Source: Flavobacteriaceae bacterium (lineage in GTDB: Bacteria > Bacteroidota > Bacteroidia > Flavobacteriales > Flavobacteriaceae). Taken from it: DNA of 44,047 nucleotides. The DNA lies in the NCBI GenBank assembly GCA_002707745.1, contig PANU01000027.1:1-44047 (forward strand), in the 5' to 3' direction. Position 1 is the first letter of the stretch. Every line of letters starts with the position of its first letter. Positions 15,191-18,565 of this stretch are shown here, piece by piece. Both the position numbers and the translations under genes were made by a program. Under the pieces are notes generated by a model. The model worked only from the letters and a program-made list of their open reading frames with translations. It did not search any database and had not been told where the DNA came from.

Positions 15191-16574
15191 GTTTTAACTG
15201 CTTCATTTTTAAGGCCAGTGTTAACAACATACTTAAGGGGTGGGAATAGGTTACGGCATCTACATGCTTAAATTTATTATAATACTGAGCCAACAACGGT
15301 TTTGAAATAAACGGGTGTAAATTTTCAGCAAAAAGATAGTCCTGTAAAGCAGCGTCGTTTTCCATCCCTAAAAACTGCAGTTCCCAATTGCGTTGTATAT
15401 AAGGTTTACCAAGTTTAGCTTGCACTTCTCTTTTCAGTTTCTGTGCAACTCTGTAGGGCAAGTTGTTTGGGCTCTTGTTTTGCTGAAAGGTATACAAATT
15501 AAAAGGCTTATGTTGTTCCCATCTAATTTTTGCAAGTGCCGGATTGCGTTTTTTTATGTAAGCAATCTGAAGTTTTCTATCGGCCAGGTATGCTTCGGGA
15601 ATTTCACAAATAAACTGACACATCCTGTTGTCAAAATACGGCAACGAGATAGGGTGTTGTGTTTCAAAAACGGCCAGATTGGGGGCGGACCATCGAGGAG
15701 CCCAATACAAACTTTTAAAAGCTCTTATTTTAGCACTCGTGTCCTGTATTTTTATCTTTTTCAGCAGGGTTTCAACTCTATTTTGAAGATACTTTGTAAA
15801 GGTTTCTTCCAGTTTCCATTCTTCCCACAGGGAGTTAGCAAGCTCCATCCCTCCTTTTTTCAGTATTTTTTTAAGTACATAAGATACTAGTTCTGTTTCT
15901 GAAAGTTGGCTGTTAACACCACTACCATCAAAAAGCACATCTCCCCAATGCCCTAAGGAAAATAGCTCACCCATGGTCGCATATTCCTTGACCAGAGCCA
16001 TTTGTCGTGGGTGTGTAAACTCGCTATAACATTGATTTATGGTAGCCAGTTCTTCAATACAATCCCACAAATAGCCTTTTTCGATATGGTATGCTGCAAA
16101 ATTAAAATCACATTCCTGAGCAATTTGTTTACCAATACCCGTTTCGGGGTAGCCTCCCTTAAAATCGTAGCTATATGAATTTACATCTTTCTCCAAATAC
16201 CTCAGCGCAGTAGCCTGAGTCCGGCTGTCCAGCCCGCCAGAAAGTGGCAAGATCACCTTTTTAGCTCCAATTTGCTCATCTATAATTTTTTCAAACAGTT
16301 GGGTAAATTCTTCCAAAGCCTCTTCAAAAGTCAGTTCCCTGGGATTGTGATACCATTGAAACCAAGGTGTACTTTTTATGAAATATCCTTCCGCATCCAC
16401 TTCACAATTGGAAGCGGGTGGCAGCACCATTAAATCTTTAAAATACGTATCGGTGTCTAAAAAGAACCCAGTGGCTGCAAACACACAAATTGCCTTTTTA
16501 TCCAACTCATGAGGTGCCTTAACATTAGCAAAGGTTGGGCGAGAAGGAATGATTGGAGTTTTAATAGTAGGCAT
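15183..16574 (-). CDS. Asparagine-synthase-like amidotransferase lacking the glutaminase domain
   Basis: The protein carries the AsnB ATP-pyrophosphatase fold, with the PP-loop PLSGGLDSRTQ around residues 110-120 and GHWGDVLFDGSG near 208-219. A true AsnB has an N-terminal Ntn-hydrolase domain starting Met-Cys and is about 550-630 residues. Here only the end of that domain is recognisable (about residues 30-75), the catalytic Cys is missing and the length is 463. In sugar loci such enzymes often amidate uronic acids, which would fit the UDP-HexNAcA genes at 35263-38072, but this is inference. An upstream in-frame ATG at 16640 lies inside the flanking repeat hairpin, so the ATG at 16574 is preferred. 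As first gene after the DUF559 insertion it may have its own promoter. Confidence 0.83.
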   Translation of the reverse strand: MPTIKTPIIPSRPTFANVKAPHELDKKAICVFAATGFFLDTDTYFKDLMVLPPASNCEVDAEGYFIKSTPWFQWYHNPRELTFEEALEEFTQLFEKIIDEQIGAKKVILPLSGGLDSRTQATALRYLEKDVNSYSYDFKGGYPETGIGKQIAQECDFNFAAYHIEKGYLWDCIEELATINQCYSEFTHPRQMALVKEYATMGELFSLGHWGDVLFDGSGVNSQLSETELVSYVLKKILKKGGMELANSLWEEWKLEETFTKYLQNRVETLLKKIKIQDTSAKIRAFKSLYWAPRWSAPNLAVFETQHPISLPYFDNRMCQFICEIPEAYLADRKLQIAYIKKRNPALAKIRWEQHKPFNLYTFQQNKSPNNLPYRVAQKLKREVQAKLGKPYIQRNWELQFLGMENDAALQDYLFAENLHPFISKPLLAQYYNKFKHVDAVTYSHPLSMLLTLALKMKQLKHG

Positions 16575-16628
16575 TGCTGATTTTTGCAGAAAGTAAAAGT
16601 AAGTATTTATTTGTAGAGTGGGGACAAA

Positions 16629-16782
16629 AAAACTCCCCATCCCGCCATAGGCGGGATACCCCTCTTTGGAAAAGAGGGGAGCTTTTGGGTTTTATTAAAA
16701 ATAAAACTGTAGGTTTTAAATAAAAAGCTCCTCCCTTAGCATAAGGGAGGTGTCTCGCCTATGGCGAGACGGAGGATTCAGT
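16629..16782. repeat. 154-bp repeat copy A with four hairpins
   Basis: This copy is a near-identical direct repeat of 17226-17379. Four perfect inverted repeats are visible: ATCCCGCC/GGCGGGAT (16639-16657), CCCCTCTT/AAGAGGGG (16659-16679), CCTCCCTTA/TAAGGGAGG (16730-16750) and GTCTCGCC/GGCGAGAC (16752-16770). An AT-rich centre separates the two hairpin pairs. The copy lies between the asparagine-synthase-like gene and the DUF559 gene, and its right edge touches the proposed DUF559 promoter. Confidence 0.92.
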
Positions 16783-16812
16783 TGACCTCTATCCTAAAAT
16801 TTAGTATCTTTA
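16782..16812 (+). promoter_or_regulatory. Likely promoter of the DUF559 gene
   Basis: A TTG at 16782-16784 is followed after 20 bases by TATCTTTA at 16805-16812. This matches the Bacteroidota -33 TTG and -7 TAnnTTTG elements except for the last base. It would give a leader of about 20 bases before the ATG at 16837. The -33 element overlaps the last base of repeat copy A. Confidence 0.42.
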
Positions 16813-16836
16813 ACAGCCTCCCCGATCTAATTTACC

Positions 16837-17202
16837 ATGATGATAAAAAAGATCCATACCCTTAAACATTTAAAAACCTTTCGAAAAGAACTACGTGAAA
16901 ACATGACCCCTGCGGAAGCGTTTTTATGGTCCAAACTAAAAGCCAGGCAATTTCAAAAAACTCGATTCACGAGGCAGCATAGCATAGAAAATTTTATTGT
17001 AGACTTTTACTGTGCAAAACATAAACTGATCATTGAATTAGATGGCCAAGTACATTTTAATCCTAAAGCTCAGGAATATGATGCCGCTAGAACAGCAAGA
17101 TTGAATGAACTAGGTTTTACCGTAATCAGATTTGAAAATAAAATGGTTTTTGATTTTTTGCCATCTGTACTGCTGGAGATTAAAGAGTATATTGGGAAGT
17201 GA
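16837..17202 (+). CDS. DUF559 family endonuclease-like protein
   Basis: A 121-residue protein typical of DUF559 (related to very-short-patch-repair and other PD-(D/E)xK nucleases). Visible conserved positions are TPAEAFLWSKLKARQF (24-39), then the core with Asp56 in FIVDFYCA, Glu67 and Asp69 in LIIELDG, His73, and VIRFE (96-100). The candidate metal-binding residues are intact, so it may be an active nuclease. It lies on the strand opposite to all neighbouring genes and between two 154-bp direct repeats, splitting the glycan locus. This suggests arrival as a unit together with the repeats. Substrate and role are not established. A second ATG at codon 2 is possible. Confidence 0.88.
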   Translation: MMIKKIHTLKHLKTFRKELRENMTPAEAFLWSKLKARQFQKTRFTRQHSIENFIVDFYCAKHKLIIELDGQVHFNPKAQEYDAARTARLNELGFTVIRFENKMVFDFLPSVLLEIKEYIGK

Positions 17203-17225
17203 ATGGTAATTTGGGAAAGTATCAC

Positions 17226-17379
17226 AAAACTCCCCATCCCGCCTAAGGCGGGATACCCCTCTTTGGAAAAGAGGGGAGCTTTTGGGTTTTATTAAAAATA
17301 AAACCGGAGGTTTTAGAAAAAAAGCTCCTCCCTTAACATAAGGGAGGTGTCTCGCCTATGGCGAGACGTAGGGTTCAGT
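17226..17379. repeat. 154-bp repeat copy B with four hairpins
   Basis: This is the direct-repeat partner of 16629-16782, with only scattered differences. Hairpins: ATCCCGCC/GGCGGGAT with loop TAA (17236-17254), CCCCTCTT/AAGAGGGG (17256-17276), CCTCCCTTA/TAAGGGAGG (17327-17347) and GTCTCGCC/GGCGAGAC (17349-17367). The right end contains the TGA stop codon (17375-17377, minus strand) of the neighbouring GT4 gene. Loop bases differ between copies (TAA and ATA in the first hairpin) while the stems are unchanged. Confidence 0.92.
17256..17294 (+). terminator. Possible terminator after the DUF559 gene
   Basis: An 8-bp GC-rich stem CCCCTCTT/AAGAGGGG with loop TGGAA is followed by AGCTTTTGGGTTTTATT, a T-rich stretch. 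It lies 54 bases after the DUF559 stop. The same hairpin also occurs upstream of the gene in copy A, so termination may be secondary to its role as part of the repeat. Confidence 0.35.
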
Positions 17380-18565
17380 CCACCCCCAGTACCTCAAAAT
17401 ACAAGGCTTCCATTCCCGCTACCATCTGCTTCTCACTATGTTTAGACATTACCCGCTTCCTAGCTTGCAGTCTTTGTTCATTTATAATAGGCAGAGGAGT
17501 TTTGGCAAAGGAACGTATGGCTTGAGCCATCCGCTCGGCATCCCGGGTTGGGATAAGAATACCTGTAGTTTCGTCCACCAATTCGTTAACACCACCACAA
17601 TTTGTAGCAACTACGGGCACACCCAACGCCATGGCTTCTATTAATACATTAGGTAATCCTTCTTCCAAAGAGGGAAGCAAAAAAATATCACTTTGCATCA
17701 TAAGCTCATAAACTTTTTGTTGATTCACTTTTGGCAAAATAGTTACAGAGGCTTCTAAGTTGTAGTTAGCTACCAGGTATTCCAGTTCTTCATTTCCGCT
17801 TCCACCAACAATATTATAGTGAAATAAAACCCCTTGTCTCTGTAATAAGTTCATTGCTTTTAAGGCGTAATCGTAGCCTTTTTTCCAATGTGGCCTGCCT
17901 ATAGAGATGATCTGTAACTTTTCATTTCTCGTATACGTTTCGGAAAAAGGAAGCTGATTAAACGTAAAGCCAGAATATACAACCCTGTCTATTTTTTGAG
18001 GGTTTGCGTACACTTTATTGCTTGTTTTGGTCATGGCTTTGGAAACCGAGTGAAATCCATGAATCTTCGGATATACTTTTTGTAAATAGGTTAGATTTTC
18101 CACATCTACAAAGGGGCGTACATTATTTTGATAGCCACGCTGACTTAACACAACCTTTATAGCAGGATTTTCAAATAACTTTTCGCACCACGGAAGCAAC
18201 GATGGCCATTGTATGTGAAAAATATGAGGTTTGTATAGGGATATGGCAGTTAAAAGGTTTAGCTGTTGTAACCGTTGTTTTTTAAAGGTGAACATCCCGT
18301 TTATATATGTAATAAAAACACTAAAATCGCCTTTTAGAAACAAAGCCTTAACCGCAAAACCAAAGCTAAGCCAATACAGTCTGGCGGTATGGGAAGTACT
18401 ACCTAAAGCGACATAAGTTACATTCGGGATTTTATGGGAAAGTTGTTCGTTAAAACCAAAAACAAATACATTTTGGGTAGTAGAAAGCCCATGAATTAAT
18501 CTATTGATAAATGCCGTGGTCTTAAATGTACCATCAAAAATTGCTATGTTCAATCCCGTTCTCAA
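17375..18565 (-). CDS. Glycosyltransferase family 4
   Basis: A 396-residue GT4 enzyme. Landmarks are SVSKAMTK (173-180), GRPHWKKG (223-230) and the donor site PSLEEGLPNVLIEAMALGVP (298-317) with CGG after it. The stop codon falls inside repeat copy B, so the last codon or codons may have been changed by the insertion, but the C-terminal helix looks complete. It overlaps the upstream GT92-like gene by ATGA. The 17.3-18.6 kb part is the last minus-strand gene before the DUF559 block, and its transcript meets the convergent DUF559 gene. Confidence 0.9.
   Translation of the reverse strand: MRTGLNIAIFDGTFKTTAFINRLIHGLSTTQNVFVFGFNEQLSHKIPNVTYVALGSTSHTARLYWLSFGFAVKALFLKGDFSVFITYINGMFTFKKQRLQQLNLLTAISLYKPHIFHIQWPSLLPWCEKLFENPAIKVVLSQRGYQNNVRPFVDVENLTYLQKVYPKIHGFHSVSKAMTKTSNKVYANPQKIDRVVYSGFTFNQLPFSETYTRNEKLQIISIGRPHWKKGYDYALKAMNLLQRQGVLFHYNIVGGSGNEELEYLVANYNLEASVTILPKVNQQKVYELMMQSDIFLLPSLEEGLPNVLIEAMALGVPVVATNCGGVNELVDETTGILIPTRDAERMAQAIRSFAKTPLPIINEQRLQARKRVMSKHSEKQMVAGMEALYFEVLGVD

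Follow-up and report, generated by a model that had tools for sequence, protein, structure and literature searches.

A DUF559 nuclease gene between hairpin repeats in a Flavobacteriaceae genome: a probable small mobile element with triplex-type ends

The repeat-gene-repeat block and its nuclease

Inspection of the window, a 44,047-nt stretch of a Flavobacteriaceae bacterium genome (contig PANU01000027.1), revealed an intact DUF559 gene between two copies, A and B, of a direct repeat (Table 1). A preliminary description of this DNA had called the copies equal in length, nearly identical and alike in orientation, with four shared perfect stems in matching order and with variable loops, and had placed the gene on the strand opposite to the surrounding glycan genes. 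All of these points are borne out. A and B align on the same strand over 154 nt without gaps at 94.2% identity, and the repeat can be extended to 159 nt at 93%. Each copy holds perfect stems of 8, 9, 9, and 8 bp, in that order, all closed by 3-nt loops; two of the four loops vary between the copies (ATA/TAA and GCA/ACA), the stems being unchanged. The DUF559 gene is antisense to long open reading frames on both sides and is the sole frame of at least 80 aa within the block, which carries no known transposase. Of six neighboring proteins scanned, five match glycan-type families and one matches none. Within 16400-17600, no Rfam RNA family matched at the gathering threshold.

Folded as single-stranded DNA, copy A reaches -43.5 kcal/mol, compared with a mean of -17.3 for shuffled sequences (z = -9.5, with none of 200 shuffles as low). 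Compared with its own inverse, the 154-nt unit forms a 68% inverted repeat over 136 nt, and each copy reads as a putative mini-element in which a short spacer separates a left end from an inverted right end. In each end in the window, the outer block lies outermost, followed by an accessory hairpin and, innermost, the C-first main hairpin. The outer blocks (AAACTCCCC at the left; GGAGGATTC or GTAGGGTTC at the right) complete a triplex pattern: read on the purine strand and set against the main hairpin's purine arm as a third strand, they make nine of nine triads at the left ends and seven of nine at the right ends, in both copies. Owing to the intervening accessory hairpin, 20 nt separate the G-arm from the third block, outside the loops of 1-6 nt used in the ITxF search. 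On this reading of the sequence, the DUF559 gene would lie between two miniature elements of the same orientation, each with a left and a right end. The right outer block of copy B overlaps the stop codon of the adjoining minus-strand glycosyltransferase gene (ORF 17375-18565).

Table 1. Features of the block in window coordinates
Feature	Position	Strand	Remark
Copy A, read as a whole mini-element, with left and right ends around a short spacer	16629..16782	+	94% to B; 68% self-inverted repeat; fold z -9.5
Copy A, putative left third-strand block, AAACTCCCC; purine strand reads GGGGAGTTT	16630..16638	+	9/9 triads with main-hairpin purine arm
Copy A, accessory hairpin H1, 8-bp stem	16639..16657	+	L026 1270-1288
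Copy A, left main C-first hairpin H2, 9-bp stem	16659..16679	+	L026 1290-1310
Copy A, right main C-first hairpin H3, 9-bp stem	16730..16750	+	L026 1361-1381
Copy A, accessory hairpin H4, 8-bp stem	16752..16770	+	L026 1383-1401
Copy A, putative right third-strand block, GGAGGATTC	16771..16779	+	7/9 triads
DUF559 (PF04480) Vsr-fold nuclease gene, 121 aa	16837..17202	+	Pfam E = 2e-33
Copy B, read as a second mini-element, orientation as A	17226..17379	+	repeat comparison with A
Copy B, putative left third-strand block	17227..17235	+	9/9 triads
Copy B, accessory hairpin H1	17236..17254	+	L026 1867-1885
Copy B, left main hairpin H2	17256..17276	+	L026 1887-1907
Copy B, right main hairpin H3	17327..17347	+	L026 1958-1978
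Copy B, accessory hairpin H4	17349..17367	+	L026 1980-1998
Copy B, putative right third-strand block, GTAGGGTTC	17368..17376	+	7/9 triads

The AlphaFold model of the window protein has a pLDDT of 90. Using this protein, Foldseek returned 3hrl, a DUF559-like Neisseria endonuclease-like protein (7e-8), 3r3p, which is I-Bth0305I (4e-5), and Vsr (1cw0, 1e-2; 1vsr also, more weakly), and a profile search gave 3hrl at 2e-28 and 3r3p at 2e-4. Residues D56, E67, D69, and H73 are among the invariant columns over 38 aligned sequences, the window protein included, in agreement with the earlier proposal that the PD-(D/E)xK residues are kept. The window protein has the PD-(D/E)XK Vsr-like fold with its conserved acidic residues. 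It resembles Vsr and the homing endonucleases such as I-Bth0305I, whose motif is named EDxHD, in fold and in similar acidic and histidine residues. The genomic setting is different, DUF559 being tied to repeat-bounded elements, the homing enzyme to introns, and Vsr to the dcm methylase gene. No methyltransferase family was found among the six neighboring proteins of the window, linkage to a cytosine methyltransferase being a Vsr trait. The excerpted text of PMC1189080 already links YcjD and Vsr within the PD-(D/E)XK superfamily.

Hairpins beside DUF559 genes in Bacteroidota

The preliminary description had suggested that DUF559 may process or spread these hairpins, an idea that it took to be refuted if the 154-bp unit were absent elsewhere. 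In its own genome the unit occurs as A and B only, and a search of 99 genomes (own included) gave matches in seven: the own genome, the congeneric G003, which gave two long matches, and five others with stretches of 23-64 nt. The G003 block is orthologous to that of the window since the flanking sequence is the same; the gene, A, and B are each 90-95% identical between the two. Outside its own genome, the full-length unit is found only at this orthologous site; by the yardstick of the preliminary description the unit as such is not spreading, and we rejected it as a dispersed repeat. Concerted evolution of A and B was also rejected, their 94.2% identity not being above the 94.5% between B and its G003 counterpart. 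What recurs is the end motif, an outer C block with a C-first hairpin, rather than the 154-bp copy. The proposal of a small mobile or domesticated unit is supported, DUF559 and hairpins being strongly and recurrently associated and having been duplicated together once (see below), but the 154-bp copy is not the recurring part.

Two more strong DUF559 genes are present in the own genome, C57 with such a hairpin upstream and C16 with C-first hairpins downstream. A stricter hairpin pattern marks seven sites there, four of them inside the block, and the reversed pattern none. The solo site on C25 resembles, by reading, a left and right pair. Another solo hairpin of this family, on contig C28 near 28754 (L056), falls inside an apparent open coding sequence.

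PF04480 is present in 38 of the 99 genomes and, at E 1e-10, in 110 of 299 family genomes (own included in both). For comparison we used 80 loci taken from the best 80 of 566 confirmed relatives, a selection that favors the clade of the window. Among these best 80, C-rich-arm hairpins lie within 350 nt of DUF559 on both sides at 48 loci, on one side at 22, and on neither at 10. By script, locus L251 also has no clear ends. Across the best-80 set, hairpins number about 6 per kb within 100 nt of the gene on each side; beyond 700 nt downstream their density is 0-0.13 per kb, and beyond 600 nt upstream 0-0.5 per kb. Of windows around the same best-80 loci, 118 of 160 element windows contain C-rich-arm hairpins versus 2 of 154 control windows. 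Because many of the 80 loci are orthologous, they were grouped by their flanks into 39 sites, one shared flank sufficing to link two loci and each site being counted by the majority of its members. Of these 39 flank-independent Bacteroidota sites (from the best 80 of 566), 35 have hairpins on one or both sides, and 25 have them on both. Same-strand direct repeats flank 44 of the best 80 loci and none of 153 control windows of the same size, so that the repeat-gene-repeat layout of the window is common.

When the downstream flanks of ten loci, drawn from two unrelated sites, are aligned, they follow one plan, in which the arms and the outer block are conserved and the accessory hairpins variable. 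Beside GIY-YIG nuclease genes of the same relatives, reading of the 30 returned loci revealed no C-rich hairpin. Small GIY-YIG genes of three relatives (L231, L238, and L241) share a hairpin of another kind in their vicinity, ATGCTGAA..TTCAGCAT, which may be a second pairing of nuclease and palindrome.

Genomes with DUF559 (n = 19) contain more hairpins than those without (n = 41; p = 0.0014, with p = 0.40 for the reversed-pattern control), part of the excess arising because the flanking hairpins are themselves counted. In this typing, G017, with two broken pieces (best E 2.3e-10), was taken as positive and the weakly matching G005, G007, G022, and G036 as negative. Dispersed hairpins of this kind do exist, as in G011 and in G027 with 43 sites. 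The similarity of nucleases and that of arms are weakly correlated (Mantel r 0.16; 87 of 5000 permutations as high). In G031, an array of CCTCCCTTCGAAGGGAGG-type hairpins with a spacing of mostly 111-149 nt surrounds DUF559 on C5 (12211-13348), and a second on C7 (91344-91651), spaced at 69-73 nt, has no DUF559 match. Decaying copies of the gene also occur, as the DUF559 matches at L022 (G044) and L035 (G048) contain an internal stop codon.

The triplex pattern, other phyla, and ycjD

The tested triplex plan comprises a C-arm, a loop, a G-arm, a short link, and a third block of G, A, or T, with G.GC, A.AT, and T.AT triads. Counting one locus per site, a perfect third block of 6-8 triads accompanies 78 of 87 hairpins at the Bacteroidota sites, compared with 2.9% when the flanks are shuffled. 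At many loci other than the window the ends are of a short type, with about 3 nt between the G-arm and the third block. Judged by this pattern, the ends flanking DUF559 fit the three-block intrastrand triplex known as boxC/PIT/TM.

A protein search of plasmid records found DUF559 in 41, among which 16 loci were picked for taxonomic spread before the flanks were inspected. Some of these are closely related to one another (two Picosynechococcus and three Deinococcus), as are two E. coli in the 18-locus set. Across these 18 loci of Cyanobacteria, Deinococcus, and Proteobacteria, a hairpin is present on at least one side at 17 and on both sides at 11, and the third block is perfect for 29 of 52 hairpins versus 2.6% after shuffling. 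By reading, a DUF559 gene of N. gonorrhoeae also lies between direct repeats of this kind. On Deinococcus plasmids of three species (L246, L248, and L249), DUF559 with its ends occupies differing positions in an hpa gene cluster. At L254, on a Pseudanabaena galeata plasmid, DUF559 with triplex ends lies within one annotated 4866-nt ORF, the downstream part of which resembles, by eye, a DNA methyltransferase.

These counts bear on whether the association could be passive, the hairpin repeats being recombination hot spots or terminators at which a small selfish gene settled by chance. Direct repeats can indeed amplify or delete intervening DNA, and hairpin arrays such as that on contig C7 of G031 exist away from DUF559 matches. 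The enrichment nonetheless far exceeds that in control windows and at GIY-YIG loci, the same motif is found in distant phyla, and the triplex geometry is conserved; a role as terminators is further disfavored by elements lying within coding genes. We regard a passive association as highly improbable.

boxC repeats have been known from E. coli since the 1990s and, to our knowledge, remain unexplained. The DUF559 gene of E. coli K-12 is ycjD, located between sapF and fabI. In the gap between ycjD and fabI, a stretch of 36 nt (L260 2317-2352) agrees letter for letter with TMECO no. 9 as tabulated by Holder et al. 2015 (PMC4666352, Table 1), from which the letters of the window differ. The motif is present on the downstream side of ycjD only, the upstream palindrome being a different one. 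The remaining 22 of the 23 TMECO copies published for K-12 MG1655 lie away from ycjD, as given in the portion of PMC4666352 consulted. The same portion reports that TMECO triplexes form in vitro, that TM motifs are linked with genome instability in E. coli, and that the gene contexts of TMECO never revealed mobility-conferring activities; the available main text contains no mention of DUF, nuclease, ycj, sapF, or fabI. Among the genomes listed as lacking the ycjD part, each has two to five matching places and one record matches the boxC-like stretch only; taking those places to be boxC, the repeats seem to persist without ycjD. E. coli strains lacking ycjD were rejected as clean empty sites, since the three fetched carry efflux genes there; eefRABCD has been reported at this place in E. 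coli (PMC12817139, in excerpt).

The ends described here share with boxC/PIT/TM(ECO) the C-arm, the G-arm, and a G third strand of the class II purine motif, as well as close inverted pairs of two types and many copies in many genomes (PMC4666352, consulted portion). They differ in three respects. Here the motif is the end of a DUF559-carrying element; the window and other Bacteroidota loci have an accessory hairpin between arm and third strand, which boxC/PIT/TM has not; and some DUF559 elements lie in coding genes, whereas the same portion describes TMECO as always intergenic. A partial likeness exists to the CGTC-tagged REPs (Rickettsia RPE-4 and RPE-6, Neisseria dRS3), which, in the portion of Di Nocera 2013 (PMC3733652) consulted, are defined by a CGTC tag, an 8-9 bp stem starting with AT pairs, and a CCA tail, are known from in-frame insertions, and are said to have no dedicated transposase. 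In the long end type, CGTC bounds the accessory hairpins in 8 of the 10 left rows and 9 of the 10 right rows of one alignment, counted manually, and CCA-like tails are present. By reading, ends of the short type (metH, recG, E. coli) have no such tag, and the stems differ. DUF559 may be the missing partner of the CGTC-tagged REPs.

Insertion, duplication, and a proposed mode of working

DUF559 domains also occur within longer reading frames, with at least 44 PF04480 matches in frames of more than 300 aa. They lie in frame within genes that we take, by sequence recognition in these genomes, to be leuS, metH, and recG, and at the start of hemD and the end of hisD, named in the same way. Each host gene is occupied at one place, except for a second metH place in G257. 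In this genome a single metH reading frame (L139) has two in-frame DUF559 elements 410 codons apart, each of 418 nt from AGCCCCCC to GGGGGGCT, which are 82.5% identical without gaps, and the identity of their 60-nt flanks is at chance (21/60 and 15/60). Opposite ends of the two copies match in inverse orientation along 27 nt (96% identical); these elements thus have terminal inverted repeats, a trait of IS and MITE elements. At the second metH place, G218 has an apparent solo end and G299 has none. No other recent DUF559 pair within a genome was found among 12 genomes searched, with the loci of 13 compared.

A domain tree was built from 94 rows after removal of identical domains, domains shorter than 95 aa, and several duplicate loci, with a single locus kept per flank cluster; in this tree the two G257 metH copies are sisters (97/74). 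The in-frame copies group by host gene (recG 100/97, hemD 100/99, and metH 100/99 with the second copy included), with leuS copies in two or three groups, so that most in-frame copies may go back to a small number of old insertions. Orthology across genera is frequent among the loci, so that moves are rare and vertical inheritance is dominant. As the G257 duplication and the tree indicate, gene and ends moved together as a unit at least once and otherwise descended mostly vertically.

Filled and empty sites exist side by side. The recG gene has DUF559 in G003 and is empty in its congeners G000 (the own genome), G001, G002, and G004; across 22 recG genes, a set that leaves out three filled (G290, G300, G010) and three empty ones (G023, G036, G309), 21 are empty with exactly 84 nt between the anchors. 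Both forms are also found for metH and leuS. At the metH element site of G283, a 45-nt insert consists of a left and a right end without DUF559. No target-site duplication is visible at the recG, metH, leuS, or second metH site, where variable linkers could hide a short one. The leuS linkers of G290 (L200) and G308 (L196) contain other small palindromic inserts of the CACCCTGAA..AGGGT type, and this linker looks like a general spot for in-frame insertion. At a DsbA-SMC site, Shinella has a form without DUF559; S. meliloti Ak57 was rejected as an empty version, being an internal deletion that retains part of DUF559. Presence and absence in A. brasilense was likewise rejected, since all seven records covering at least 80% of the locus match over 99-100%. 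In a Legionella evolution experiment, segments with DUF559 and a transposase are among the recombination hot spots (PMC12308824, in excerpt).

Could DUF559 instead be a site-specific homing endonuclease like I-Bth0305I, which cuts the unfilled leuS, metH, and recG alleles, with the ends as flank remnants or tolerated linkers? The fold match, the repeated use of one host position with clades specific to host genes, and the empty and filled alleles at one site would all suit such an enzyme. Yet the ends accompany DUF559 at 35 of the 39 independent sites (from the best 80 of 566) and in several phyla, and the two copies in one metH share an exact end-to-end unit at unrelated targets. Phages are the usual carriers of homing-type enzymes, but the window query found DUF559 in only 3 of 50,697 phage records, on which we rejected a phage carrier. 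Homing is thus an unlikely account of these loci.

A different possibility is that the triplex hairpins are independent unstable repeats near which DUF559 is kept as a VSP-like repair nuclease, the two forming a stabilizing, addictive pair that is not mobile. The Caulobacter DUF559 protein named VsrA has a part in a phenotype of DNA damage that is connected with a cytosine methyltransferase (excerpts of PMC12907096), and the instability linked with TM motifs (PMC4666352, as above) and the long vertical retention at single sites point in the same direction. Such a pairing leaves unexplained the inverted ends on both sides, the exact end-to-end duplication, and the in-frame insertion into leuS, metH, and recG, and we consider it quite improbable.

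With a common architecture, recurrence in several phyla, one duplication of gene plus ends, filled and empty sites within one genus, and miniatures that lack DUF559, we consider it probable that the block represents a widespread small mobile element, composed of a Vsr-fold DUF559 gene and inverted ends with a C-first hairpin and a third purine block. DUF559 itself presumably cuts or moves these ends. Its binding to the hairpin or triplex ends would probably take place during replication, while these are extruded or single-stranded, and would be followed by a nick or cut at or beside them; host repair would then copy or lose the element. Since the covalent tyrosine link of RAYTs is not expected of a Vsr-fold enzyme, cutting or nicking at the ends followed by copying through host repair is the expected course. 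The miniature left-right forms would be non-autonomous derivatives moved in trans. The usual state would be one to few copies, inherited vertically at a site and rarely moving, as is the case for RAYTs.

The parallel with REP/RAYT systems drawn in the preliminary description is apt for this mode of working, although the nuclease is of another fold. As in REP/REPIN-RAYT systems, small palindromes in inverted pairs flank a nuclease gene and dispersed non-autonomous copies exist. The enzyme is a Vsr-fold DUF559 here and an HUH tyrosine enzyme there (Y1, IS200/IS605 superfamily), and the triplex-type hairpin end has no regular GTAG tag: GTAG stands at the foot of one of the eight window hairpins (H4 of B), copy A and both G003 copies reading GGAG by inspection. 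By this analogy, the element is best read as working like a REP/RAYT pair without being a member of that group. The wider proposal is that DUF559 proteins, YcjD included, are dedicated nucleases of boxC/PIT/TM, which would recognize the extruded hairpin or triplex at inverted ends and spread the repeats in several phyla; we hold its chances to be evenly balanced. As part of that same evenly balanced proposal, the DUF559-boxC system would be a selfish or domesticated, structure-guided counterpart of REP/RAYT with unrelated chemistry. In the literature searched, with most subscription journals outside its scope, no work was found that joins DUF559 or ycjD to palindromic or triplex repeats, and the DUF559-boxC link appears unreported there.

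If this interpretation is correct, DUF559, a widespread family with little known function, would gain a role, and the small mobile elements would gain a class that combines a Vsr-like nuclease with a triplex-forming end and enters essential proteins such as LeuS in frame. In E. coli K-12, ycjD would provide a candidate nuclease that makes the origin of boxC repeats and the associated instability directly testable.
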